The notes below the pieces were generated by a model, which saw only the letters and a list, made by a program, of their open reading frames with translations, made no database searches and was not told where the DNA came from. Position numbers and translations under genes: made by a program. From Prolixibacteraceae bacterium (lineage in GTDB: Bacteria > Bacteroidota > Bacteroidia > Bacteroidales > Prolixibacteraceae), in contig JAIBEY010000087.1 of NCBI GenBank assembly GCA_019459525.1, forward strand, positions 1 through 64,000: a stretch of DNA of 64,000 nucleotides. Direction: 5' to 3'. Shown here in pieces: positions 51,845-64,000 of this stretch. Positions within the stretch are counted from its first letter, which is position 1; each line of letters opens with the position of its first letter.

Positions 51845-51978
51845 AATGTTCAAGTCTTTGTTTGATTTACCGAATCGATAAAATACGGATTGGATAGGGA
51901 TTTGTCGGTTGCCAAATCTAGCTGGCGTTGAAATAGGTTTTTAAATTATCATTCAGGAAGGATTTATTGATTTTTTTT

Positions 51979-53178
51979 TTACTCACTCCAGTTTGCTGCG
52001 TACCGGCATAATTCCCGTTTCATATCGGTAATTTTAAACAGGTAGGGACCAAACAGTTGCCGCCCGACATTTGTATTGATATACAGAATGGTATGGTTGT
52101 CGGGAACAAAAAAGACTTGAGTTGAGCAACCGATGCCATCACCTTCATGCCCAAACTGAGGTGTTGAACCTTCGTTAAACTGCCAGTATTCAAAACCCTC
52201 GCCATACTCTGGTTCGGTTGAGGTTTTTCCGCTAATCCATGTTTTCATTTCCTGAAGTGACGATGCCGAAACAACTTTTCCTTTTACGAGGGCATCGTAA
52301 AATTTTACGACATCGGCCGGGGTTGAGGCAATGCCGCCATAGCCATCGCTGGCATTAGCCAGGGCATTGTTCCATGTCGTGATATTTTCGAGCTGCTCGT
52401 TGGCATAACGATCGAAATAATAGTTCGGAAGACCCAGATTAACCGCTTGTTGATCGGAAACCTTGAAATAGGTCTGTTCCAGATTGAGGGGCTGAAGAAT
52501 TTCTGATTTTAAAAGTTGTTCGTAGCTTTTCCCGGTAACATTTTCGAGCAAAAGTTGCAACAGCAGATAGTTGGTATTCGAGTACATGAAATCAGTTCCC
52601 GGTTCAAATGCTAATGGGTTCCCTTTAACCATAGCCAAACGTTCTGTAACCGAAGGCTGGTTCAGCGGGTCATTCAACTGGCCAACCATGAATTCGGGCA
52701 GTTCGGTAACATTTACAATCCCGGAGCTATGATTTAAAAGCATGCGGACTGTAATTTTATCACTGCCTTCCAGGTGAATCAAAATACGTTCAGGCAAATA
52801 GTCTTTTAGGAGATTGTCCGGTTCAATCACTTTTTTTTCAATTTGTTTCATCACCAAAGCTGCGGTGTATGTTTTAGTAATGCTGAACAACCAGGAAGCT
52901 CCACCGGGTTTAAACGGACTGTTTGATTCGATTTTGGCCTGACCGCCAGTGACATGTAACCAACCATCGTTGTTTTTCACCACCACCTGAACTCCGGGAA
53001 TGCCTCTTTCTATATACTTCTCAATGATAAATTGGATAGAATCTTTCATCGGATGGTTCGGGTTCGATTCAAATTCATCCAGATTTGGCTGATAATCAGT
53101 GGTAAACGGATCTTTACTGCACGATCCTGCAAGTAGCAGTGCTATGGCTGCGATTAAAATAATTTTAAAAGTTTTCAT
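51979..53178 (-). CDS. Serine hydrolase lipoprotein, class-C beta-lactamase fold
   Basis: From ATG 53178 the product has 399 residues, a lipoprotein (LAGSC, Cys20). The penicillin-binding-protein-like active site is S99-I-T-K102 (LFSITK), the YxN motif is YSN, and the third motif HEGDGIG replaces KTG. Such proteins act as esterases, D-amino peptidases or carboxypeptidases in the periplasm; true lactamase activity is unlikely to be assumed. It starts 14 nt after the barrel gene ends, so both share the promoter with the first CACATnnnnATGTG site (at 53931-53944), here CGCATGGAGATGTG. Confidence 0.82.
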   Translation of the reverse strand: MKTFKIILIAAIALLLAGSCSKDPFTTDYQPNLDEFESNPNHPMKDSIQFIIEKYIERGIPGVQVVVKNNDGWLHVTGGQAKIESNSPFKPGGASWLFSITKTYTAALVMKQIEKKVIEPDNLLKDYLPERILIHLEGSDKITVRMLLNHSSGIVNVTELPEFMVGQLNDPLNQPSVTERLAMVKGNPLAFEPGTDFMYSNTNYLLLQLLLENVTGKSYEQLLKSEILQPLNLEQTYFKVSDQQAVNLGLPNYYFDRYANEQLENITTWNNALANASDGYGGIASTPADVVKFYDALVKGKVVSASSLQEMKTWISGKTSTEPEYGEGFEYWQFNEGSTPQFGHEGDGIGCSTQVFFVPDNHTILYINTNVGRQLFGPYLFKITDMKRELCRYAANWSE

Positions 53179-53192
53179 TTGTTTTCTGTTTT

Positions 53193-53879
53193 TTATTGTT
53201 GATTGAAATGCAATTTTAGCCCAAACATTAGATTTGAGTCGGGCAATGGCGAAAGGTCTGGACTGTAGCGGAATAAGGCCTGCAACTGGTAAGCCACGAA
53301 TGGCCGTATTTCGCATGAGCTAATTTTAACCGAACGATACCCCAGGCTGAACTGAACGGGTACTTGTACCACACCTTTGAATCCTTGTCCATTACCCCAT
53401 TTGTCGCCGTCCCATTTGAGCGGGTTGGTACTGTAAAGCGACAGCCGGTAACCTGCACCCGTGCCAAATCCCAGCTCAAATCTTCTGAAAATTACAGGTG
53501 TAAACTGGGCCAGAAGTTGCAAGCCAACTGCATCGCCCTGAAATTCGTACTGGCTGAATTGTCCATGAATGCCTATTGCGAATTTTTGCTTTTGACCAAG
53601 GAGTTTGTTTATTCCAAGGGAAGCAACAAAATCGGGCTGCCCCCATTTCAGGTTTTCAACAGGTGCATAATACGAATGTATGCCTGTGGAAAGAACGAAC
53701 TGCCAGGGTTGGCTACTGCTGTTATTCCTGGCCGAAGCCTGGATCGTCAGAAAAAGGAGGATAAACGGAATCCAGTTTCTGAATGTTGGATATGGGAGTT
53801 TCAAATGCCGTGAACTGCCTTTCCCGGTTGGTTGGAATGTATGTTTTCCTGATTTCTGATGTAAGCTGAATGGTTTCAT
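53193..53879 (-). CDS. Outer-membrane beta-barrel protein
   Basis: From ATG 53879 the product has 228 residues with an N-terminal hydrophobic helix (TFRNWIPFILLFLTIQASA). Alternating hydrophobic strands, the final aromatic end (LMFGLKLHFNQQ) and GTGAGYRLSLYST motifs fit an eight- to ten-strand outer-membrane barrel. No specific enzyme motif is certain, although acyloxyacyl-hydrolase-like and lipid A-modifying barrels look similar. It is first in a pair with the serine hydrolase gene. Regulation: palindrome 52 nt upstream of the start. Confidence 0.65.
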   Translation of the reverse strand: MKPFSLHQKSGKHTFQPTGKGSSRHLKLPYPTFRNWIPFILLFLTIQASARNNSSSQPWQFVLSTGIHSYYAPVENLKWGQPDFVASLGINKLLGQKQKFAIGIHGQFSQYEFQGDAVGLQLLAQFTPVIFRRFELGFGTGAGYRLSLYSTNPLKWDGDKWGNGQGFKGVVQVPVQFSLGYRSVKISSCEIRPFVAYQLQALFRYSPDLSPLPDSNLMFGLKLHFNQQ

Positions 53880-53930
53880 TGTTTTCTGTTTTATGGTGCA
53901 AAGTTTGTCAATGTCAGACAGTTCAGAAAT

Positions 53931-53944
53931 CGCATGGAGATGTG
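53931..53944 (-). promoter_or_regulatory. Palindromic operator for the barrel/serine hydrolase unit
   Basis: CGCATGGAGATGTG, one of six sites with consensus CACATnnnnATGTG (one mismatch here). On the minus strand TTTG of a -7 box starts after exactly 28 nt (53903-53899 region). No -33 TTG is at the proper distance, consistent with an activator site. Confidence 0.65.
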
Positions 53945-53960
53945 AAATGGTGGTATGGAA

Positions 53961-53993
53961 ACAAAAAAAGATGTGATTAATGACCACATCTTT
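53961..53993 (-). terminator. Terminator of the cytochrome c gene
   Basis: AAAGATGTG (53967-53975) pairs with CACATCTTT (53985-53993), with a T-run on the minus strand. It resembles the hairpins at 54735-54765 and 56993-57019. Confidence 0.8.
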
Positions 53994-54058
53994 GAATCTG
54001 TTATCGAACCCATGATTTGCTCCAACATGGGGTTATGCGCTTTACCGCTTACTGTTGT

Positions 54059-54631
54059 TTAGTTTCCGGACGGCGGAATTGCCATTGGAACAAGGTTGTT
54101 TACTGGTTTAATACTTTTGAGGTAAGCAAAAATGGCTTTTATGTCTTCGTCGTCCATTTGCGAATAGGACTGCCATGGCATCGGAGGTAGTAACTGACGG
54201 CTGTTTTCAAGGCCTTTCCATTTACCTTGCTTCATCGCTCTTAAAAATTGTTCTTCTGTCCAATTCCCGATTCCCGACGGGTCGGGTGTGAGGTTGGCAG
54301 CAAACGAGGTTCCCCATGGGCCAATTGTTGCGGTATTGTTCATGTTGAAAAGAACATACGATTTCAGGATATTGGCATCGTATTCCGGTAACAGTTCATC
54401 AGCCTGGTGCCCCGAAAGTAACCGGAGCGTATCTGGTACGGGACCCATGGCGGTCATCATTTTCGGCGAATGGCAGTCGTTGCATCCGAGGGTATTCACC
54501 AGTTTTTTACCTTTTTCAATCGGATCGACGGCAGGTGTTGGCTGATTGTTGGTTTCCGCATTTTTTGCAGCCGGATTACATGCCAACAACACGACTGAAA
54601 TCACCACCGGAATAAAATAGCTTTTTTTCAT
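54059..54631 (-). CDS. c-type cytochrome lipoprotein
   Basis: From ATG 54631 (MKKSYFIPVVISVVLLAC) the product has 190 residues with lipobox Cys18. The single haem motif is CNDCH (C50, C53, H54), and LLPPMPWQSY carries a probable distal Met. It should sit in the periplasm or outer leaflet and shuttle electrons. The unit carries CGCATAGAAATGTG upstream. The open frame further upstream is repeat-like noncoding DNA shared with the barrel gene promoter. Physiological partner unknown. Confidence 0.85.
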   Translation of the reverse strand: MKKSYFIPVVISVVLLACNPAAKNAETNNQPTPAVDPIEKGKKLVNTLGCNDCHSPKMMTAMGPVPDTLRLLSGHQADELLPEYDANILKSYVLFNMNNTATIGPWGTSFAANLTPDPSGIGNWTEEQFLRAMKQGKWKGLENSRQLLPPMPWQSYSQMDDEDIKAIFAYLKSIKPVNNLVPMAIPPSGN

Positions 54632-54703
54632 GTTTCTGTTTTTAAGATTTATTATTAATCCATATTTTTTGCAAAGTTCATCGATATCAGTCAGTTCTGA
54701 AAT

Positions 54704-54717
54704 CGCATAGAAATGTG
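54704..54717 (-). promoter_or_regulatory. Palindromic operator for the cytochrome c unit
   Basis: CGCATAGAAATGTG, with TTTG 28 nt downstream on the minus strand. The whole segment from terminator to -7 box is homologous to the one at 53880-53993, pointing to duplication of the intergenic module. Confidence 0.65.
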
Positions 54718-54734
54718 AATGTGAAGTATGAAAA

Positions 54735-54765
54735 CAAAAAAAGATGTGATCAACGATCACATCTT
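54735..54765 (-). terminator. Terminator of the hemerythrin-like gene
   Basis: AAGATGTGATC (54741-54751) pairs with GATCACATCTT (54755-54765), perfect 11-bp stem, followed on the minus strand by seven T. Confidence 0.85.
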
Positions 54766-54836
54766 AAACCAAATTAAAACTATAAAGGGCTATTCGACAA
54801 AATTTACATGTACTCCGGTGTAATTTATGGGGTGTT

Positions 54837-55505
54837 TTAATAGTTCGCGGAAGTAATCCACAACTTACTTTTCAGTTTTCTGAAATCGGGTTCGGGCATA
54901 ATTCTTTTCAGTGTTCCCATGAGTGAATCAAAATCCGGAACAGGCATGTTTTTGCTGGTGGCTATTAACATCAGCAGGTTTTCTGTTTCGTTTTGTGCGG
55001 GGATGATGTGCTTGAGCCAAAGAGCATAGGTTTCAATATCCATTTTCTTTACAATTGCCTTGTTTATTGCCATTTGTTCTTCATCAGTCAAATGATCCCA
55101 TATCAGCCCCTGCGTAACTGTTTCTTCCTCGTTTATGTGTTCGAGGTAAAGGCTTTGAAATGCTGCAAATTGTAAATAAAAGTCGTAGGCTTCGCCGGAG
55201 GTAATGGTTGTACCGAACTTTTCGAGCTGATCCTCAAGCTGGCTCTGAATGTGTTCAATTTGGATATGGTCGAGTTTGTCGTGTTCCGTAGAGCCAGGCA
55301 ATTTAGCTTCGAGCGCCGCCAAAATGATTTTATCTTCGTTTTCGGCATGCAAAGTCAACAGGAGAAACAATTCTTTTCCCATGCTTTTTAGTTTTTCAAC
55401 TGCAGCCGTGTCGTTAAAATTGGTTTGTCCGGCCAGTACTGAAAAGTTGGCCATTGTCCTTCTCAGCGCTTTATGAGGGGCTGAGAACATTCTGATTGTT
55501 GTCAT
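54837..55505 (-). CDS. Hemerythrin-like (HHE) domain protein
   Basis: A 222-residue cytoplasmic protein. Histidines and acids are spaced as in hemerythrin-like domains: H11 in APHKALRR, HAENEDK, HDKLDHIQIEH, and EHINEEE. They would form a diiron site that binds O2 or NO. The start (MTTIRMFSAPHKALRR) is only 12 nt after the T9SS gene ends, so the two are one transcript. Presence next to a cytochrome c in one regulon suggests an oxygen- or nitric-oxide-related role, which is inference. Confidence 0.7.
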   Translation of the reverse strand: MTTIRMFSAPHKALRRTMANFSVLAGQTNFNDTAAVEKLKSMGKELFLLLTLHAENEDKIILAALEAKLPGSTEHDKLDHIQIEHIQSQLEDQLEKFGTTITSGEAYDFYLQFAAFQSLYLEHINEEETVTQGLIWDHLTDEEQMAINKAIVKKMDIETYALWLKHIIPAQNETENLLMLIATSKNMPVPDFDSLMGTLKRIMPEPDFRKLKSKLWITSANY

Positions 55506-55517
55506 AAGTTTCCTGAA

Positions 55518-56852
55518 TTATTGTTTAAATACTTTGCTTTGGTGTGATTTCCCGTCAGCCGTTCTGATGGAAAGCACGTACATCCCGCGAATAAATTGTT
55601 CTGTATTTATGGTAGCCGATGAACTGGAAAATGTATCCTGATAGATGGTTTTACCGGCAAGATCGGTGATGTTTACCTGGTAGCTTTTAATGTTTGTATC
55701 GTTGATTGAAATACTTAAAGCATTTTTTACCGGATTGGGGAACGCTTTTATGCTGCTGAGCTTATTCATATCCGGAATGTCGGTTGTAAAATGCAGGAAA
55801 TCGCTGAAATCAAATTTCAATACATTTTCTGGTGCTTCCAGCTCCGGATCCCAGTAGCGAACGGTCATCTGGGTTACATTATTTTGGTTGTCGTAAGCCA
55901 GGTCGAAGAAGTACCGGATATCCAAACTCCAGTTGTTATCGGCCCACGAACTGTATTGAAAACCGGTTGGATTGCCCGAAGCATCAAATGTACTAACGAA
56001 CTTTTCATCTTTTTTCCAGGCTGAATTCTCCCAGGTTTCGGAAACGTTTGCTTCTTCGGTGTTGGTATGTGTATAAATCTGACGCTTACTGTTTACCCAC
56101 TTGTCATTCTCTTGCACTTCTGTCGTTCCTGTATAATTGTCACCTTCGTAAACGGCTGTATATCGTTCATTTTTCATGCCTTCTTTCCAGTATTGAATGG
56201 TGTAGCCTGCCAGTTGTTTCTTTTGCCAATTGTGCCAAACCAAAAGAATGGTCCGGCTATAATCGACCCAACGGGCACCGTCCCATTCCGACGCATGAAA
56301 TTCGGTTGGTATTCCACTGCCATTCAAGGTGTAATAATCTTTTGATTTGTTTTCCCAGGCTCCGTTATGCCAGATTTGCTTTATTTCTTCAGTCAGGTTG
56401 CCATGATCATCATAAGAATACTGAGTTTTTTCTCCTGTAAGGATCATCCATTCGGTGTCGCCCATGATGTAGGAGATTTCTTCAGTAATATTCCCTTTGT
56501 GGTCGTACTTGGTAGATTCCCGCGACAGGTAATGCCCGGTTCCTGCTTCCTGAACAACTTCTTCCAGTATATCACCTTTGGGGTTGTAGGTATAGGCCGT
56601 GTTGGAGGTATGTTCCCATAACTTTGTTTCCTCATTCCAGGTGTAGTCCACACTTTTTCCGGGTACCGAAAGCTGATTTTCTTTCAGGCTGAGGAGCTTC
56701 AGTTGAGGGTTGCTGATTCCCTTTACTAACGATGCGTTTTTGAGTTGCAAAAAATGCAGCTTACTGACTTCTGTGTTTCGTTGGCTGGCATTAATTGTAA
56801 AATCGGCCAGCAACAGAAATGCAACAACTAAAATTGTTTTTCTTGTTTTCAT
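55518..56852 (-). CDS. T9SS-secreted protein with YD-like repeats
   Basis: A 444-residue secreted protein (MKTRKTILVVAFLLLADFTINA). The body is a series of beta-hairpin repeats such as YSYDDHGNLTEEI and YDHKGNITEEI, similar to the RHS/YD pattern. The C-terminus is a type A sorting domain (AFPNPVKNALSISI... FIRGMYVLSIRT). It is the first gene of a two-gene unit with the hemerythrin-like gene. The palindrome CACATGGAAATGTG is 104 nt upstream of the start. The ligand is unknown. Confidence 0.8.
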   Translation of the reverse strand: MKTRKTILVVAFLLLADFTINASQRNTEVSKLHFLQLKNASLVKGISNPQLKLLSLKENQLSVPGKSVDYTWNEETKLWEHTSNTAYTYNPKGDILEEVVQEAGTGHYLSRESTKYDHKGNITEEISYIMGDTEWMILTGEKTQYSYDDHGNLTEEIKQIWHNGAWENKSKDYYTLNGSGIPTEFHASEWDGARWVDYSRTILLVWHNWQKKQLAGYTIQYWKEGMKNERYTAVYEGDNYTGTTEVQENDKWVNSKRQIYTHTNTEEANVSETWENSAWKKDEKFVSTFDASGNPTGFQYSSWADNNWSLDIRYFFDLAYDNQNNVTQMTVRYWDPELEAPENVLKFDFSDFLHFTTDIPDMNKLSSIKAFPNPVKNALSISINDTNIKSYQVNITDLAGKTIYQDTFSSSSATINTEQFIRGMYVLSIRTADGKSHQSKVFKQ

Positions 56853-56955
56853 GTTGATAAAATTTAACCAATGGTAATTTTTAATGATTCTTGTTTTCTG
56901 AATTGTTTCGAACTATGCGAAAGCAAAATAATGATGAATGTCAGTATGTTACAAT

Positions 56956-56969
56956 CACATGGAAATGTG
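56956..56969 (-). promoter_or_regulatory. Palindromic operator for the T9SS/hemerythrin unit
   Basis: A full-consensus site CACATGGAAATGTG with TCA/TGA flanks. TTTG starts 28 nt downstream on the minus strand. Confidence 0.7.
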
Positions 56970-56992
56970 AAACTTTCTGCCTGTAAACGAAG

Positions 56993-57019
56993 AAAGATGT
57001 GATTGCTGATCACATCTTT
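56993..57019 (-). terminator. Terminator of the S41 protease gene
   Basis: AAAGATGTGAT (56993-57003) pairs with ATCACATCTTT (57009-57019). The T-run is short and broken (TTTCTTC), so it is weaker than the other two. Confidence 0.7.
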
Positions 57020-57099
57020 CAAATTCCTGTTTTCTGTAAAATGTTTAAATTCAGTTTATTGGTGTCTTGAGTCAGGGAGAAATAATGCCGCGGCTACGA

Positions 57100-58539
57100 T
57101 CAGTCGTTTTGGATTAGTTTCGTACAAAAGTTAAGGACAGGGTCCTCTCCGGATAGGATTTGATTAACGGTTGGCTCAACTTTGTAATCAGGAATAACGC
57201 CCCGGTCGTTGAATGGATAACCACTTACGGCAGTGTAATAAGCCACCATGGGAATTCCAACGTTGAGCTTGCTGTTTGGCAGAGTTACAATTGCAAAAGT
57301 GCCGCTGTTATTTCCGTAATAGGCCCCACCGGTTTCTTCCCCGATAAAAGTTGCACGCTTAAGGAAATGTGTTACCGCTGCAAATTCAGCAGTAACCGAG
57401 AAACTGGCGCCATTAATCAGCACATAAACATCGCCTGAAAAGTTATTCTTTTGCGGTTTCTGTACTTTCAGGTTTTTGTTGTGATTCCAGCGGTAACTGC
57501 CATCATTTCCCTTTGAAATCAGGTGCCTGTAAATCCCATAAAATCCGGGTAAACGTGCTTGTTTGGCAAATGAGTATTTTTTACGGGTTGTTACTTCAAG
57601 CCGGTCGTAATAGCTAAATTCCCGGTCCATTAAATACGAAAGTAACAGCGAACCACGTCGGTCAATTCCACCTTCATTGTTTCGGAGATCGATAACCAGA
57701 TTTTTCACTTTCTTTTGGTTTATCGCTTCGAAAGAATTCTTAAGGAATTGTTTGTATTTTTTCTCCGTTCCTTCCCAAAACGATGGGATGGACAGCAGGG
57801 CCATTTTGTCCTCCCGGAAATTAATCCTGCTCAGAGGTTTGTTATTGGCCACTTCAGCCAGGCGTTTCTCGTACAGCTCAATCTTCTCATGCGAAACAGA
57901 AGGAATTTTAGTTTCAGCAATACCCTGCCCGTTCCGATATTTGACAGTGAATGTATCCGGACCTTCAAACAGATTGGCATAGTAGGCGCTAAAATAATGG
58001 CTCATTTCTATGTACTTAAAGGTGGTGTTATTCCCATCTGAACAAAAGGAATTCAGCATTTTATCCATGATATCCGAAACGGAGTTCCCGTTAATCTCAA
58101 GCACTTCCGATCCTGCCGGAATGGGACTCGTATCTTCGTAATTTCCAATTTCATAAGCTTTTTTGTCCTGAAAAAACAACCGCAATGGGAAAACTTTCTC
58201 TGTATTGTAATAAAAGTTTGTTGACCAATTGCTGTTGGGATGGAATTTGGTATGCCCGCATTTGATTTGAACAACCAGTGGCAGCAACAGTTTATAAAAC
58301 TCCTGCTGACTCATTTCACAATCTATCAGACCATTTGTTTTTGCGAATAGGCTGTCGGTGTGAGCTTTGGAATTATACCGGTATAAACCGGGATGCGCCT
58401 CCTGCAAGGCTTGTTCGAAAAGGTCAAAATCAGCTTTTAATTGAGCTACGGTGAATGTTTCCTGTGCTTTCAGGAATTGAACGGACGACAAAAACTGAAG
58501 GCAAATGATCAATAAAACGGCATGAGTCTTTTTTTTCAT
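57100..58539 (-). CDS. Secreted S41-family serine protease
   Basis: From ATG 58539 (MKKKTHAVLLIICLQFLSS signal) the product has 479 residues; the open frame 30 codons upstream has no signal character. S41 core: VKNLVIDLRNNEGGIDRRGSLLLSYL, VLINGASFSVTAEFAAV with the active-site serine (ASFS), and GEETGGAYYGNNSG; a PDZ-like part precedes (GSEVLEINGNSVSDIMDKML). It is probably a periplasmic or surface protease, or a non-proteolytic binding protein. One gene; palindrome 92 nt upstream. Confidence 0.85.
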   Translation of the reverse strand: MKKKTHAVLLIICLQFLSSVQFLKAQETFTVAQLKADFDLFEQALQEAHPGLYRYNSKAHTDSLFAKTNGLIDCEMSQQEFYKLLLPLVVQIKCGHTKFHPNSNWSTNFYYNTEKVFPLRLFFQDKKAYEIGNYEDTSPIPAGSEVLEINGNSVSDIMDKMLNSFCSDGNNTTFKYIEMSHYFSAYYANLFEGPDTFTVKYRNGQGIAETKIPSVSHEKIELYEKRLAEVANNKPLSRINFREDKMALLSIPSFWEGTEKKYKQFLKNSFEAINQKKVKNLVIDLRNNEGGIDRRGSLLLSYLMDREFSYYDRLEVTTRKKYSFAKQARLPGFYGIYRHLISKGNDGSYRWNHNKNLKVQKPQKNNFSGDVYVLINGASFSVTAEFAAVTHFLKRATFIGEETGGAYYGNNSGTFAIVTLPNSKLNVGIPMVAYYTAVSGYPFNDRGVIPDYKVEPTVNQILSGEDPVLNFCTKLIQND

Positions 58540-58630
58540 AAGGTTGGCTTGTTTTCTACAGGTAGGTACTTCTGATGAGATAGATAAAAATCCCGATGTA
58601 AAGTAAAGATTTACAGTTTTATCCGGCAAT

Positions 58631-58644
58631 CACATGAATATGTG
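58631..58644 (-). promoter_or_regulatory. Palindromic operator for the S41 gene
   Basis: CACATGAATATGTG with TCA/TGA flanks; the box 28 nt downstream reads TTTA rather than TTTG. Confidence 0.65.
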
Positions 58645-58706
58645 AAATTATAGGCTGGTAAGATTTGTCCGTATTATTTAGGAGAAAATAACCCGACTGG
58701 TTCTTT

Positions 58707-59339
58707 TTAGATCAGTTTATCTTTAAAGGCTTTGGCCACGGCTTCGCTTTTGCTGTTAACCTGAAGTTTTTCGTATATCTTTTTAATGTGCGAGCGAACA
58801 GTGTCGATGGCAATAAACATATCGTTGGCAATCATTTTATAGCTGTAACCGTTTACGAGCAACTGCAAAACCTGTTTTTCGCGTTCGCTTAAGTTGTATT
58901 CGTTGTTGGCTTGCTGTGGTAATTCGGAGAACATTTTAAGAACCTGTGTAGCGATTGATGAAGTCATAGGCGCTCCGCCGGTAGCAACATCGCCAATATA
59001 TTCCAATAGTTTTGCCGGAGGGGTTTTCTTTAGCAGGTAGCCATTTGCTCCGTTTTTCAAAGCCTCAAAAACATTTTTATTGTCATCAAATACGGTAAGC
59101 ATCAGTACTTTAATGTTCTGGTTCACTTCCCTTATTCTTTTGAGGCCTTCGATCCCGTTTACTCCGGGCATATCAATGTCCATTAAAATGACATCCGGAT
59201 TCCATGCTTCCAGTTCAGGAATGATGTTGTTGCAATTTTTATACGAAGCCACCACACTAAATCCATCACTACCATCAATAAGCATGGTCAAACCTTCTCG
59301 TAACTGCGGGTTATCTTCGTAGATTAATACTTTTATCAT
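58707..59339 (-). CDS. NarL/LuxR-family response regulator
   Basis: A 210-residue regulator: receiver domain with the ED pair at 8-9, phospho-acceptor D54 in ILMDIDMPG and K at LLKKTPP, then a LuxR-type HTH (LSEREKQVLQLLVNGYSYKMIANDM... VRSHIKKIYEKL). It follows the kinase gene by 61 nt. CACATAAATATGTG lies 44 nt upstream of its start, so it is likely autoregulated. It is the best candidate to bind the six palindromes, because it is the only DNA-binding protein encoded among them; this is inference. Confidence 0.9.
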   Translation of the reverse strand: MIKVLIYEDNPQLREGLTMLIDGSDGFSVVASYKNCNNIIPELEAWNPDVILMDIDMPGVNGIEGLKRIREVNQNIKVLMLTVFDDNKNVFEALKNGANGYLLKKTPPAKLLEYIGDVATGGAPMTSSIATQVLKMFSELPQQANNEYNLSEREKQVLQLLVNGYSYKMIANDMFIAIDTVRSHIKKIYEKLQVNSKSEAVAKAFKDKLI

Positions 59340-59382
59340 GACTTTTTTTTACAAAATTACGAATCAAAAACCATTTAGGATA

Positions 59383-59396
59383 CACATAAATATGTG
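59383..59396 (-). promoter_or_regulatory. Palindromic operator for the response regulator
   Basis: CACATAAATATGTG; a perfect TAATTTTG -7 box follows after 27 nt counted to the TTTG. The site starts 18 bp inside the gap from the kinase stop, so the regulator has its own promoter. Confidence 0.7.
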
Positions 59397-59400
59397 GAAA

Positions 59401-62400
59401 TCATGCCTGAACAGGAATATTCAGGAAGACCTCAGTGCCTAGTCCTTGCCAACTACTAATATCAATGGTGCCTTTCAGCGATTCAGCCCGTTTTTGCATG
59501 TTGCCCAATCCATTCCCCCCATCGGCTAGATTTACATTAAATCCCACCCCATTATCGGTTATCGACATGGTAAGTCGTTGATTACTATGTGCTAATTCAA
59601 TTATGGTTGTGGTGCAATGGGCATATTTGGCCACATTATTAACAGCTTCCTTAAATATCAGAAACACATCGCGGCGGGTTTCCATATCCAGTTTTAGTTC
59701 CTGAATGTGTTCGCCTATATTAAAAGTGATTTCCACATCTTTGGGTTCCAGTATTCCTGAAGCATATTCACGCATTCGCGCCAAAATTTTTAACATGCTG
59801 TCGTTGTCAGGTTTAATGCTCCAGACAATATCGTCCATGGCTTCCATCATCTGCTGGCTGTTATCTGTAATCTTACTGAGATAACTGCTGGTTTTTACCG
59901 GGTCGGTATGCATTTTACTTTTTGCCATCGAACTGAGAATGTTGATCGTACTTAACGTCGATCCAATATCGTCATGAAGATCGCGGGCCACTTTATTTCT
60001 CACCCGTTCAATAGCCAGTAGTTTAGTCAACCGCAGGCGATAGATCAAATAGGTTAGCCAGCCAAGCAGTACAAAACCAAGCAGTGCGAACCACCAGGTT
60101 TGATAGAAATGAGGCAATATGGTGAGTGGAAGTGAAGTGATGTGTGCCGATTCCATACCCTGCATATTGATACATTTGACATTGAACATGTACTTTCCGG
60201 GCGACAGTGTGGTGTAATTTGCGGCCATGTCTTGCTCGGCTTTCACCCAATCAGCATCAACCCCATCAAGCTTATAATAGTAAATTAGCTTGTCTTGATG
60301 GGTGTAACTCAGCGAAGAGAAATAAAAGGTAAATGAATTTTGTTCGGGTTTTAAGATCACTTTTTTCGAAGCCATTAACGAGTCTAACGGAATATATTTA
60401 TTAAATATCTTAAAATCGGTTAACGTTACTTCAGGCGCCGCCGTGTTTCGTTTCAGTTCTTCCGGAACAAAACCAAACAAGGAGTTTTCTCCGCCAAACC
60501 ATAGCTCTCCGTTGCGCATCTCGAATTTGGCATAAGGTGATTTTTCGGCCATAATAACCCCGTTCTTATCGTTGTACGATGCAAATATATTTTTCGGATA
60601 GTTGTAGCTACCTAGTCCATTGTTGTTAATAAACCAAAGGATGTTTTCCTTATCTTTCAAAAGCTGGGTGACGTTTGCTCCGGGAAGTCCATCGTATTGG
60701 GTAAGTGTCTGTACCTTTGCCGATTTCAGGTTTATTAGATTTAAAAACCCCGTACTCACGAAAAAAATGCTGTCGTTGTATTGTTCAATATCATAGACAC
60801 AGTTTCCCATAAATGAAGTTGCCGAGCCTGGCTGCCCGTTAAAGTGGTACAACACATTCTGCCCCGTGTGGTCCATAATGAAAAGTCCCGTATTCCGCGT
60901 TCCAACCCAAATGCGGTCGGATTTATCTTTGAAAAGAATATATATGGAGGAGTTAAAGTCACGTATAATTTCAAAATTTTCGCTGGTCATTTCGGTTCCG
61001 TATTTCCATTTAGCCAGGCGGCCTTTTTGAGTGCCGAAGAATAGACTCCCATCCTTGTCCTCCAGTATTTGCCTTACGGGCGCTTGCTCAAAAACAGGCG
61101 GTTCCAGCAAGTGGACAGGCTTTTTTGCCTGCGGATCAAAAATGGCGATGAGCCCATTCTGGCAGCCCGACCAGATTAAACCCGATTTCGAATGCTGCAA
61201 CATATCCCACACCTGCTTATAATCCATGAGGTTATCGCCTTTCATCGATTTATACAGGTCATCATCAATTCTTTTGAAATATTTATCGTACAACAAAATG
61301 CCGTTTCCAAGAGTGCCAATCCAATTTTCCAGGTCCTTTGTTTCCTGAATAGAGGTTACAACCATATCTTTCCCGTGTTCCATGTCATTGAAAACTGCGT
61401 TATACACACTTTTCTGTCCGGAGGTAACCACATACAAGCCATTATCAGTCGTCAGCCAGATGTTGTTTTCCCTGTCTTCGTAGGTTTGCTTTATTTCCTT
61501 GCACTTGATGTCATACTCGCCCGGAACTGCTTTTTTGTTCTGAATGAAAGCGTTCGATTTGGTATCGTAGCACACGAGCGTGTTAACACCGCCAAGCCAA
61601 ATCTGTCCATTACGGGTTTCATTTATCCAGAAGGTTCCCTCATAATCTGTTCCGGAAGTTTGAATTGCTGAAATATCATCCAGCATTTGATTCTTCAACG
61701 GATCGAAATGTATCAAAACAGGTTCAACCTCTGCCCGGAAATCCCAGCAAATGATCCACCAGGTTCTTCTCGTATCAATAAAAAAAGCATAGACCGATGA
61801 AAAGTTATTGTTTTGAAATACGGGCAGATGCAGCGGATTATTTCGCTTGTAAACGAGTGTTTGTGTTTTGCTCTGATAAACTGCCAGCCCGAAGTCACTG
61901 CATATCCAATAATCACCGGTAATGGTATCTTCAAATAAACTGTTTACGGTCCAACCGTCAGGAACTTTGATCGGAAGATGGTCATCTGTAAATTTATTTT
62001 CAGTCGGATTGTAGCACAGTAATCCGGATTTGTGCGTGCATAGAAAAATATTCCCTTTGCTGTCGCGGAATAAGTTAAATTCTGATTGAAAAAGAAGTTG
62101 ATCTGGTGATTTAACCGGAACCCTCGAATAGGTGAATGAAATCGGGTCAAACTTACCAATCAGGCTGCCCTGTCGTAGCCAAATCTTTCCATCGCCGGCA
62201 TCCAATATCTGATCAATGCCCAGGGGAGGCATGGAATGATCCAGTCCATCTGATTTAAAACTGATAAATTTCCGGCCATCGAAACGCTGAACCCCATTCT
62301 CAGTCCCGACCCATAAAAAACCCTTTTTATCCTGCCAGATACAGTTTACCCTGTTGGTATTTAAACCGTCAGCATTCGAAAGCCGATTAAAAATATTCGA

Positions 62401-62463
62401 CATCTGACCAAGGACAGAAAACGGCAGGGAAAGTACAAAGCAGAGGTAAATAATCCTGATCAT
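59401..62463 (-). CDS. Two-component sensor kinase with propeller and Y_Y_Y domain
   Basis: A 1020-residue kinase. A signal (MIRIIYLCFVLSLPFSVLGQ) leads to a periplasmic series of reg_prop repeats (WQDKKGFLWVGTENGVQRF, ENNIWLTTDNGLY, SDRIWVGTRNTGLF) over about 650 residues. A Y_Y_Y domain follows (LIYYYKLDGVDADW, about 715-770), then one helix at about 790-807. Cytoplasmic HisKA_3 has H830 in ARDLHDDIG, and HATPase_c carries EAVNNVAKYAH and DNGVGF. There is no receiver domain, so it is a classic kinase working with the LuxR-type regulator downstream. Such proteins usually sense an extracellular sugar or polymer; the ligand is not identified. Palindrome 62 nt upstream. Confidence 0.92.
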   Translation of the reverse strand: MIRIIYLCFVLSLPFSVLGQMSNIFNRLSNADGLNTNRVNCIWQDKKGFLWVGTENGVQRFDGRKFISFKSDGLDHSMPPLGIDQILDAGDGKIWLRQGSLIGKFDPISFTYSRVPVKSPDQLLFQSEFNLFRDSKGNIFLCTHKSGLLCYNPTENKFTDDHLPIKVPDGWTVNSLFEDTITGDYWICSDFGLAVYQSKTQTLVYKRNNPLHLPVFQNNNFSSVYAFFIDTRRTWWIICWDFRAEVEPVLIHFDPLKNQMLDDISAIQTSGTDYEGTFWINETRNGQIWLGGVNTLVCYDTKSNAFIQNKKAVPGEYDIKCKEIKQTYEDRENNIWLTTDNGLYVVTSGQKSVYNAVFNDMEHGKDMVVTSIQETKDLENWIGTLGNGILLYDKYFKRIDDDLYKSMKGDNLMDYKQVWDMLQHSKSGLIWSGCQNGLIAIFDPQAKKPVHLLEPPVFEQAPVRQILEDKDGSLFFGTQKGRLAKWKYGTEMTSENFEIIRDFNSSIYILFKDKSDRIWVGTRNTGLFIMDHTGQNVLYHFNGQPGSATSFMGNCVYDIEQYNDSIFFVSTGFLNLINLKSAKVQTLTQYDGLPGANVTQLLKDKENILWFINNNGLGSYNYPKNIFASYNDKNGVIMAEKSPYAKFEMRNGELWFGGENSLFGFVPEELKRNTAAPEVTLTDFKIFNKYIPLDSLMASKKVILKPEQNSFTFYFSSLSYTHQDKLIYYYKLDGVDADWVKAEQDMAANYTTLSPGKYMFNVKCINMQGMESAHITSLPLTILPHFYQTWWFALLGFVLLGWLTYLIYRLRLTKLLAIERVRNKVARDLHDDIGSTLSTINILSSMAKSKMHTDPVKTSSYLSKITDNSQQMMEAMDDIVWSIKPDNDSMLKILARMREYASGILEPKDVEITFNIGEHIQELKLDMETRRDVFLIFKEAVNNVAKYAHCTTTIIELAHSNQRLTMSITDNGVGFNVNLADGGNGLGNMQKRAESLKGTIDISSWQGLGTEVFLNIPVQA

Positions 62464-62524
62464 TGATCACTTTTCCAGTAAAATTACAAAAACATTCTTT
62501 TTAAAATGCCGGAAAGCTAAAAAC

Positions 62525-62538
62525 CACATCTTTATGTG
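62525..62538 (-). promoter_or_regulatory. Palindromic operator for the sensor kinase
   Basis: CACATCTTTATGTG, full consensus core. Spacing to a TTTG (34 nt) is larger than in the other five, so this promoter is the weakest match. Confidence 0.6.
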
Positions 62539-62633
62539 GTGATGGTATTTCCTGTTTGGGCAAGAAATTTTTGGCTGTGTAAGACCTGGCACATTATTTA
62601 TCCTGAAGTCGGTTGACAGGCAGGGTTTGCCCG

Positions 62634-64000
62634 TTATTTCTCAACATCCGGGGCAAAGGTTTCGTGGAAATCGTTGCTCAGCACCCTGAATTCTGTTCGC
62701 CGATTCAGTCCTTTGGCTATTTCCTGTTGCTCGGGTGTAAGTTTCAGGATAAATTCCTCGGTCAGTTCATCGTTACGTTTCAGGAAATCGTATTGTTTGG
62801 CTAATTCGCGGTTCACTTTTTTGGGCCAGGTTTCTCCGTAGCCCTTAGCTACCAACCGGGCCGAATTCACCCCTTTCGAAATCAGGTAATCGACTACCGA
62901 TTGTGCGCGTTTTTGCGAAAGATCGGAGTTAAACTGATCACTGCCAATGTGGTCGGTATGTGCCATCAGTTCAATGGTTATGGTTGGGTTAAGCGTTAGC
63001 AACTGAACAACTGAATCGAGAGCCAACTTTGATTCTTCTGTGATTTGGTAACTTCCCGTGGCATAATTGATGTTGTTCACTTTCACAGGCTCATCGGTTG
63101 GCGATAGCTTAAATTCGAATCTAAATTCTTTACTGTCTTCCAGCCCAACGGTTGATGCCCTGACTTTATCGTTGAGGTAGCCATCTTTAAAAGCAGCAAA
63201 AACATAATCGGTCTGTGGTTTCAGTTTTAGTTGGAAACGTCCGCCATCGGCCCTCATTTTCAGGTTCGTACCGTCGGTTCCGATAATACGGATCATGGCT
63301 CCGTCGATTTTCTGATTGGTTTCTTTGTTGAAGATTTCGCCACTGGCATTAAATACTTTGGGTGGCAGATAAAATGAATAAATATCATCACTTCTCGATC
63401 CTTTCCGGTTCGATGCAAATAATCCTTTTTCAACTTCGCCTTTAATTACCGTAAGTCCAAAATCATCACCGGGCGAATTAATAGGGGCTCTCATGTTTTC
63501 CACAGCCCACTTCCCTTTTTCGTCTTTTTTCGCCTTAAAAATATCGAGTCCGCCAATTCCCGGGTGGTAATTGGATGAAAAATAGAGATCCCCGTTTTCG
63601 CGGATGAAAGGGAACATTTCGTCGCCGGGTGTATTAATTTCAGAACCCATATTTACGGGTTTACCAAAGCCCCCTCCATCGGAAGAAGCCATCCAAATGT
63701 CTTTTCCACCGAAACCGCCCGGTTTATCGGATACAAAATAAAGGGTCGATCCATCGGCGCTTAGCGAGGGGTGAGCAGCAATAATGCTGTCGCCAACCAG
63801 TTCAATTAATGTAGGTTCCGACCATTGCCCTCTCGATTGATTGGCAGCAAACAATTCGGTTCCCAAATCTTTAGATTTGTCGTATCGGGCGCGTGTAAAA
63901 ATCATCAGATCGCCCCTTTCCGAGAGGGTTGCAGCACCTTCATCACTGGTAGTATTGATTAGTTCGTTTTCTTCGAGCAGTTGGGGAGTATCCCATTTTT
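62634..64000 (-). CDS. PorE-like OmpA-family protein with PD40 propeller (5-prime end beyond window)
   Basis: The frame is open to the right edge of the window, so the N-terminus is missing; 455 residues are visible. PD40/WD40-like blades come first (LSADGSTLYFVSDKPGGFGGKDIW, PGIGGLDIFKAKKDEKG), then a carboxypeptidase-regulatory-like domain (ASGEIFNKETNQKIDGAMIRI), then an OmpA_C domain with IELMAHTDHIGSDQFNSDLSQKRAQ and the peptidoglycan-binding NRRTEFRVL. This order matches PorE, an outer-membrane-anchored T9SS component, though other OmpA/PD40 proteins share it. A TPR region would be expected upstream if it is PorE. Confidence 0.75.
   Translation of the reverse strand, partial: KWDTPQLLEENELINTTSDEGAATLSERGDLMIFTRARYDKSKDLGTELFAANQSRGQWSEPTLIELVGDSIIAAHPSLSADGSTLYFVSDKPGGFGGKDIWMASSDGGGFGKPVNMGSEINTPGDEMFPFIRENGDLYFSSNYHPGIGGLDIFKAKKDEKGKWAVENMRAPINSPGDDFGLTVIKGEVEKGLFASNRKGSRSDDIYSFYLPPKVFNASGEIFNKETNQKIDGAMIRIIGTDGTNLKMRADGGRFQLKLKPQTDYVFAAFKDGYLNDKVRASTVGLEDSKEFRFEFKLSPTDEPVKVNNINYATGSYQITEESKLALDSVVQLLTLNPTITIELMAHTDHIGSDQFNSDLSQKRAQSVVDYLISKGVNSARLVAKGYGETWPKKVNRELAKQYDFLKRNDELTEEFILKLTPEQQEIAKGLNRRTEFRVLSNDFHETFAPDVEK

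Follow-up and report, generated by a model that had tools for sequence, protein, structure and literature searches.

In the hybrid two-component systems (HTCS) of Bacteroidetes, a receiver and an AraC-type output domain are fused to the sensor kinase. Binding sites are, to our knowledge, unknown for most of the many LuxR-type regulators that are paired with propeller kinases in Bacteroidota. The box recognized by ComA of Bacillus subtilis is an inverted repeat of two 6-bp elements with a spacer of 4 nucleotides (nt), and NarL activates the ogt promoter of Escherichia coli from sites at -44.5 and -77.5, according to the available parts of the two reports (PMC4797271 and PMC7419079, respectively). 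Here, we analysed a locus in the first 64,000 nt of contig JAIBEY010000087.1 of a Prolixibacteraceae bacterium (the whole stretch is hereafter called the window), where a propeller-type sensor kinase and a NarL/LuxR-type response regulator lie among six minus-strand copies of the palindrome CACAT-N4-ATGTG. The locus very probably represents an autoregulated, mostly locus-confined two-component regulon of the NarL/ComA type, in which kinase and regulator would control themselves and neighbouring redox and surface genes through this one palindrome.

The initial annotation, made from the sequence alone, had reported the six palindromes, each with one of six successive minus-strand units downstream of it, and a scan of the window bears out their positions, strand and mismatches: exact copies start at 56956, 58631, 59383 and 62525, and copies with one mismatch (an ATGCG arm) at 53931 and 54704. 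When two mismatches are allowed, the window contains 26 palindromes against 29.2 expected. Raw frequency was therefore rejected as evidence, and the signal resides in the clustering of exact sites, in the promoter layout and in conservation. The genome as a whole (5.54 Mb in 116 contigs) holds seven exact palindromes where a hand estimate from composition predicts about six, and it is their clustering that is unusual, with four of the seven inside 5.6 kb of the locus. Two of the three remaining copies, on contigs C32 and C35, were dismissed as regulon members since both fall within reading frames, while the third (C60:9590-9603, locus L003) forms part of a full promoter cassette before a paralogue of the window protein with a type IX secretion system (T9SS) sorting tail, with a TTTG starting 28 nt past the palindrome (+28), as at the window targets. 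Hence, the palindrome is not equally frequent before unrelated genes.

With one mismatch allowed, the genome presents 113 palindromic places versus 68 for a reversed control pattern. A genome scan of the kind proposed by the initial annotation, run for a palindrome followed after 26-29 nt by TTTG, retrieves three places in the window's own genome, one in G008 and 11 in the other 59 relatives, the reversed control of this composite giving five across the 61 genomes; among these 61 (own plus 60 relatives), G008 is the only relative with a close orthologue of the regulator (91% identical, the next reaching 47%). Pairwise alignments of the promoters at 53931, 54704, 56956 and C60 extend over 53-191 nt and take in an upstream terminator-like hairpin; the four look like copies of one cassette placed before different genes and, because of this duplication, their sites are not mutually independent.

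That the palindromes belong to the LuxR-type regulator, as the initial annotation had proposed, is supported by phylogenetic footprinting, in which the palindrome appears to follow the regulator throughout Bacteroidota. The best 80 homologous regulator loci from a scan of species genomes (50-91% identical; all chosen by the regulator, some closely related) cover genera that include Yeosuana, Maribellus, Algoriphagus, Sediminibacterium and Chitinophaga, with 41 loci at ≥71% identity, 47 at ≥63% and 53 at ≥57%. Among all 5-mers with spacers of 0-10 nt, CACAT-N4-ATGTG ranks first by number of sites, with 71 sites in 36 of the 47 loci, while composition-permuted controls yield at most three sites; a spacer of 4 tops all spacers from 0 to 10. 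When loci are counted by a site in the 300 nt before the regulator, the motif (16 loci) is level with ACATA-N2, a pattern contained in the same sites. As judged with a crude caller of open reading frames (ORFs), the 53 loci have 61 of their 75 exact sites no more than 150 nt from an ORF start and seven inside ORFs of at least 150 codons, compared with 19% and 77% of random positions; 29 control palindromes yielded 28 sites, of which three are near a start and 27 inside.

At the regulator promoter itself, a site with at most one mismatch is present within 300 nt in 30 of the 41 orthologues of ≥71% identity (13 of them exact); 24 of these 30 fall at -57 to -82, and shuffled windows reach such a site in 177 of 18,614 cases. 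Kinase promoters possess one in 22 of 33 cases, 16 being exact. Homologues below 57% identity have a regulator site in three of 27 cases, and exact sites occur in six of the 33 loci below 63%, two of the six having one within 300 nt upstream of the regulator; judged from these loci, the motif fades with regulator distance. The recognition-helix residues D179, S183 and K186 are 94-96% conserved in the 52 site-bearing homologues and 43-64% in the other 28, a contrast that the kinship of close orthologues explains in part. The outer T/A pair of tCACAT-N4-ATGTGa is a preference rather than invariant.

G008 carries CACATATTCATGTG before its regulator gene and TAGCTTTG at +27. In the window's own genome, the next full-length homologues of the regulator are only 25-32% identical, and the regulator is found in only two of 23 genomes of the window's genus, some of which are incomplete. 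Regulator orthologues in Flavobacteriaceae and Maribellus are 89-91% identical while the kinases are 57-60% identical (G000, G008, L091-L093), and such kinase homologues adjoin the same regulator in L091-L093 and G008; horizontal spread of the regulator is plausible from these figures. More distant kinase/regulator loci of the genus of the window (L069-L072) had no palindrome in the stretches read, which implies that the motif is not a general property of propeller kinases. The kinases of these four loci are 29-34% identical over the aligned part and the regulators 45-47%, and both adjoin large surface-type proteins.

An independent sequence model (A2) was built from 29 sites of other bacteria, those of Maribellus and Yeosuana included, without any site of the window. 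Within the window, it returns eight matches with E<0.01, all at the six palindromes, and two elsewhere with E>2. Genome-wide, where the best 150 first-look candidates per genome were scored and E<=0.05 was accepted, the matches in the window's own genome are the six window sites and the C60 site before the paralogous T9SS gene, while those in Maribellus are six at five places within one 8-kb stretch; over four genomes, 14 of 15 matches lie in the regulator locus. Furthermore, a strict composite with TAnnTTTG occurs 15 times in 21 genomes, 13 of these inside the regulator locus by coordinates, and its reversed pattern not at all. By these predicted sites, the regulon is compact and mostly local.

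The spacings described by the initial annotation are correct, the TTTG beginning 28 nt past the palindrome at 53931, 54704 and 56956 and 27 nt past it at 59383, with a TTTA after 28 nt at 58631. To compare loci, a box was called when it was TAnnTTTG-like with at least five of six matches, its offset being the start of the TTTG after the palindrome. Of 61 target sides, 27 have such a box at +27/28, as do 14 of 18 regulator sites. The 23 kinase sites include 18 with the box at +42 to +44 and none with one at +27/28; the mean number of boxes per offset is below one in each class. The box of the window kinase, TAATTTTA at +42, stands at the place usual for kinase promoters elsewhere. The further remark that no -33 TTG is well placed holds for the other window promoters, where a -33 match is absent, but fails at 56956 and 58631, where an ATTG immediately abuts the palindrome, its centre 26 nt from that of the -7 box. 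The same distance separates the -33 TTTG from the -7 TAnnTTTG in Bacteroides fragilis, as given in the available part of PMC7366714, in which the -33 motif is also stated not to be found in Flavobacterium johnsoniae. Across relatives, ATTG or GTTG directly follows the palindrome in 25 of the 36 sites with a box at +28.

The centres of palindrome and -7 box are 34-35 nt apart in five of the six window units and 49 nt apart at the kinase. A distance of 34-35 nt places the palindrome centre at about -42 at targets and regulator, near the -45 first suggested, and the class-II position proposed on that basis is upheld, as the predicted positions in these five units correspond to a site centred near -41 that abuts a -33/-35 element. 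At kinase promoters, the predicted centre is near -56, and this shift of 14-16 nt upstream (about 1.5 helical turns) recurs across genera, in loci from L092 to L127. A separate observation concerns Sediminibacterium salmoneum and two metagenome-assembled genomes (MAGs; L100, L102, L105), where an extra half-site after one operator could pair as a hairpin before the -7 box.

Some target promoters bear a second element, ATGTGAT-N5-ATCACAT, whose arms are exact regulator half-sites in everted order; this upstream inverted repeat of the same half-sites is new. Outside the palindromes, the window and the 53 loci contain seven exact copies (two in the window, two in Maribellus, one in Yeosuana and one in each of the related MAGs L095 and L096). 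In six of them, a palindrome with one mismatch or none follows after 26-28 nt, and the Yeosuana copy stands 26 nt before the two-mismatch palindrome of its cytochrome c gene; in the window, the repeats at 53971-53989, 54744-54762 and 56997-57015 sit 26-27 nt upstream. With imperfect arms allowed, scores of 13-14 out of 14 are reached at eight of 128 promoter-like sites, at gaps of 24-28 nt, against 0.05 expected from shuffles, while most of the 128 have no upstream repeat. Extra half-sites within 100 nt upstream number 15 versus 3.5 expected at targets (largely the repeat itself), two versus 1.4 at regulator sites and five versus 2.0 at kinase sites, and the low counts at the latter two argue against a general array.

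What the repeat does is finely balanced. It might do no more than terminate transcription of the preceding gene, having been duplicated together with the promoter cassette, and we give this an even chance: six of the seven copies folded reach -11 to -17 kcal/mol, a T usually follows the hairpin, the window repeats were called terminator-like, and the cassettes of the window are clearly duplicated. Terminator-like sites overall are not in excess in 51900-62700 (14 against 11.1 in shuffles). A role as terminator alone sits less well with the identical arms of the seven copies in four lineages, whose loop and outer stem vary, with the poor hairpin (-6.7 kcal/mol) of one Maribellus copy, with the 24-28 nt spacing to the palindrome, or with the genome-wide distribution, where all five exact copies in four whole genomes (two in the window's own, two in Maribellus, one in Yeosuana, none in G008) fall in the regulator locus. 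A bolder and rather doubtful possibility is that one half-site makes up two operators of different topology, both used by the regulator: the class-II palindrome and, some four turns of the helix further upstream, the everted repeat, which would double as an intrinsic terminator. If so, binding of the regulator could link activation of the promoter downstream to either insulation from the preceding gene or read-through of it, and this cassette of terminator, operator and promoter would be what carries the regulon to new genes.

The genes downstream of the palindromes (Table) also recur beside the regulator in other loci. Near the regulator, 18 of the 53 orthologous loci have a cytochrome c homologue (12 of these with a site of one mismatch or none), versus one of the 27 distant loci. 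The corresponding figures are 7/53 versus 0/27 for the serine hydrolase (one with its own exact site), 5/53 versus 0/27 for the S41 peptidase (two with exact sites), 4/53 versus 2/27 for the hemerythrin protein (two of the four with exact sites), 1/53 versus 1/27 for the T9SS protein and 1/53 (with an exact site) versus 0/27 for the barrel protein. In Maribellus sp. YY47, the kinase and regulator genes are followed in one row by those for a distant S41 peptidase, T9SS protein, hemerythrin, barrel-like protein, serine hydrolase and cytochrome c, and sites stand before the kinase, regulator, S41, T9SS and barrel genes; the window differs from this order only in having cytochrome c ahead of the barrel gene. 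Further site-bearing genes encode extracytoplasmic function (ECF) sigma factors, ApbE, DUF2807 and an outer-membrane receptor-like protein, and the mix of predicted targets is suggestive of an envelope or redox response. In Cecembia, Indibacter and Pararhodonellum, the palindrome is found at a gene of one ECF sigma factor family (L117, L122 and L126, assigned by Pfam for L117 and by similarity for the other two), a possible cascade.

Domain analysis agrees with the assignment of the two signalling proteins: the four domains of a Reg_prop/Y_Y_Y HisKA_3 sensor kinase occur together in the 1020-residue protein, and the regulator scores above the Pfam cut-off for PF00072 and PF00196, as expected of the NarL/FixJ (LuxR-type) family. 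It is not NarL itself, as its 153.9 bits remain below the cut-off of 250 of the NCBIfam equivalog. The barrel-like protein has no Pfam or NCBIfam match, and the serine hydrolase is under the cut-off in all 25 NCBIfam families shown out of 36 matched, its score as a class C beta-lactamase being 48.7 bits against a cut-off of 415.

Table. Predicted genes, operators and promoter elements of the two-component locus (window coordinates).
Feature	Position	Strand	Remarks
Sensor kinase, 1020 residues	59401..62463	-	Pfam: Reg_prop propeller, Y_Y_Y, HisKA_3, HATPase_c; DLHDDIG at residue 828
NarL/LuxR-type response regulator, 210 residues	58707..59339	-	Receiver + GerE; nearest solved structure NarL 1a04; 91% orthologue in G008
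Putative operator palindrome, kinase promoter, CACATAAAGATGTG	62525..62538	-	
Putative -7 box TAATTTTA of kinase, +42 from palindrome (kinase-type spacing)	62479..62486	-	
Putative operator palindrome, regulator's own promoter, CACATATTTATGTG	59383..59396	-	
Putative -7 box TAATTTTG of regulator, +27	59352..59359	-	G008 shares +27 layout
Putative operator palindrome, S41 peptidase, then ATTG	58631..58644	-	
Putative -7 box TTACTTTA of S41 unit, +28	58599..58606	-	
S41-family peptidase, start inferred	57100..58539	-	Pfam; site-bearing homologues in Algoriphagus L119, L121
Upstream inverted repeat ATGTGAT-N5-ATCACAT, also terminator-like (T9SS/hemerythrin unit)	56997..57015	-	
Putative operator palindrome, T9SS/hemerythrin unit, then ATTG	56956..56969	-	
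Putative -7 box TTATTTTG, T9SS/hemerythrin unit, +28	56924..56931	-	
T9SS-type protein, Por sorting tail, weak YD/RHS repeat matches	55518..56852	-	Maribellus homologue 42%, one-mismatch site
Hemerythrin HHE-domain protein, in T9SS unit	54837..55505	-	Pfam; homologues in L093, L097, L122, L126
Upstream inverted repeat ATGTGAT-N5-ATCACAT, also terminator-like (cytochrome c unit)	54744..54762	-	
Putative operator palindrome (ATGCG variant), cytochrome c unit	54704..54717	-	
Putative -7 box GAACTTTG, cytochrome c unit, +28	54672..54679	-	
Cytochrome c, lipoprotein-like, start inferred	54059..54631	-	Pfam; homologue near regulator in 18/53 loci
Upstream inverted repeat, one degenerate arm (ATGTGGT-N5-ATCACAT), terminator-like (barrel unit)	53971..53989	-	
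Putative operator palindrome (ATGCG variant), barrel/serine hydrolase unit	53931..53944	-	
Putative -7 box AAACTTTG, barrel/serine hydrolase unit, +28	53899..53906	-	
Barrel-like protein (barrel as read in the initial annotation), start inferred	53193..53879	-	Maribellus homologue 52%, exact site
Serine hydrolase, beta-lactamase/AmpH fold, lipoprotein-like, start inferred	51979..53178	-	Pfam; Maribellus homologue 66%

In the mechanism that we favour, the propeller-type histidine kinase would pass phosphate to the NarL/ComA-like regulator, a dimer of which, as the footprinting suggests, would bind the 16-bp inverted repeat tCACAT-N4-ATGTGa. At the targets and at the regulator's own promoter, the palindrome at about -42 would abut a weak or absent -33 box and most likely support class-II-type activation with a TAnnTTTG-like -7 box. 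The palindrome of the kinase promoter, near -56, has a conserved geometry of its own, which hints at control of another kind. The presumed targets, encoded beside the regulator, would be the S41 peptidase, the T9SS and hemerythrin-like proteins, the cytochrome c lipoprotein, the barrel-like protein and the serine hydrolase, and in the window and three other lineages some of their promoters carry the second inverted repeat, also a terminator-like hairpin, 24-28 nt upstream.

Several observations weigh against this mechanism. The loci were all selected by the regulator, which leaves some formal room for a second conserved regulator beside it; DNA binding, phosphotransfer and activation are themselves inferred from sequence. 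Eleven of the 41 close orthologues have no site of one mismatch or fewer in the 300 nt, some of them having two-mismatch sites at the expected place. Of the 61 target sides, 34 have no good box at +27/28, 20 have no clear best box, and 15 are a kinase or regulator site seen from its back. Kinase-type spacing, with a box at +44, is seen at four regulator sites (L109, L110, L113 and L114), which lie 201-262 nt upstream. Most target families of the window, cytochrome c excepted, are site-bearing in only one to three other loci. Finally, the model, under stricter filters, still returns 12 matches in 39 relatives that have no close orthologue, about 0.3 each, compared with seven in the window's own genome.

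Another factor, for instance of the CRP/FNR kind, might instead bind the palindromes, the two-component genes being mere members of its regulon. CRP/FNR operators read TGTGA-N6-TCACA or TTGAT-N4-ATCAA. The redox-like targets would suit such a factor, and ATGTGAT-N5-ATCACAT resembles a CRP site with one additional base; its core is nevertheless N7, and the half-site orientation and core of the main palindrome differ from both operators, for which reasons a CRP/FNR regulon was set aside. Sites that lie mostly in the regulator locus (13 of 15 strict composites, 14 of 15 model matches) and whose presence tracks both regulator identity and recognition helix leave this account quite improbable. Chance, or the recent duplication of a single promoter, could be read into the cassette shared by three window promoters and C60 and into an exact genome total so near the composition expectation, yet the pattern is conserved in other genera and a model without window sites recovers it, so that we regard this explanation as refuted, its probability being negligible. 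The position of the palindrome could also suit a repressor: the regulator would bind the palindromes and silence the units by covering the -33 region, with phosphorylation relieving or strengthening the effect. The palindrome does abut the -33 position, and the 14-16 nt shift at kinase promoters could mean opposite signs at different promoters. However, the preferred spacing of 27-28 nt, the centre near -42 and the missing -33 match at 53931, 54704 and 59383 fit an activator, and NarL, in the available part of PMC7419079, activates from a comparable -44.5; repression is unlikely on balance.

Accepting an activating NarL/ComA-type regulon as the probable reading, one orthologous group would gain a predicted operator, a pair of conserved promoter layouts and a set of recurring targets, and an uncharacterized signalling system a concrete DNA target, with binding, signal and physiology testable in culturable carriers. 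The locus would also offer a clean case of seemingly activator-dependent Bacteroidota promoters, with a preferred spacing to TAnnTTTG and a weak -33 element. No description of the system or its motif was found in the open-access literature, searched at the level of titles and the beginnings of abstracts, subscription papers being mostly outside the search.

With the HTCS, the locus shares a sensor composed of a Reg_prop propeller and Y_Y_Y domain, whereas it has a HisKA_3 kinase and a separate NarL/GerE regulator; an HTCS identity was rejected, as Pfam detects no fused receiver or AraC-type domain in the 1020-residue kinase and the regulator is a separate gene. None of the nine window proteins scanned with Pfam has a glycan-use domain. 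The two 6-bp inverted elements of tCACAT-N4-ATGTGa, with their 4-nt spacer, have the operator geometry of the ComA/NarL type and would be bound by the regulator as a dimer. ComP-ComA of B. subtilis is comparable in its LuxR/NarL-type regulator, in the two hexamers 4 nt apart and in an additional, topologically different repeat nearby, as described in the available part of PMC4797271. The ComA half-site is, however, TTGCGG and that of the window TCACAT; the extra repeat of ComA is direct and downstream, that of the window everted and upstream; and the window sensor is propeller-type, with no quorum peptide known for the system. NarX-NarL of E. coli resembles the locus in that NarL (1a04) is the solved structure closest to the regulator (E 1.7e-32) and in its activation from -44.5 with a second site at -77.5 (available part of PMC7419079), while the window system differs in its half-site, in its propeller-type sensor and in a predicted regulon that is mostly local rather than global.

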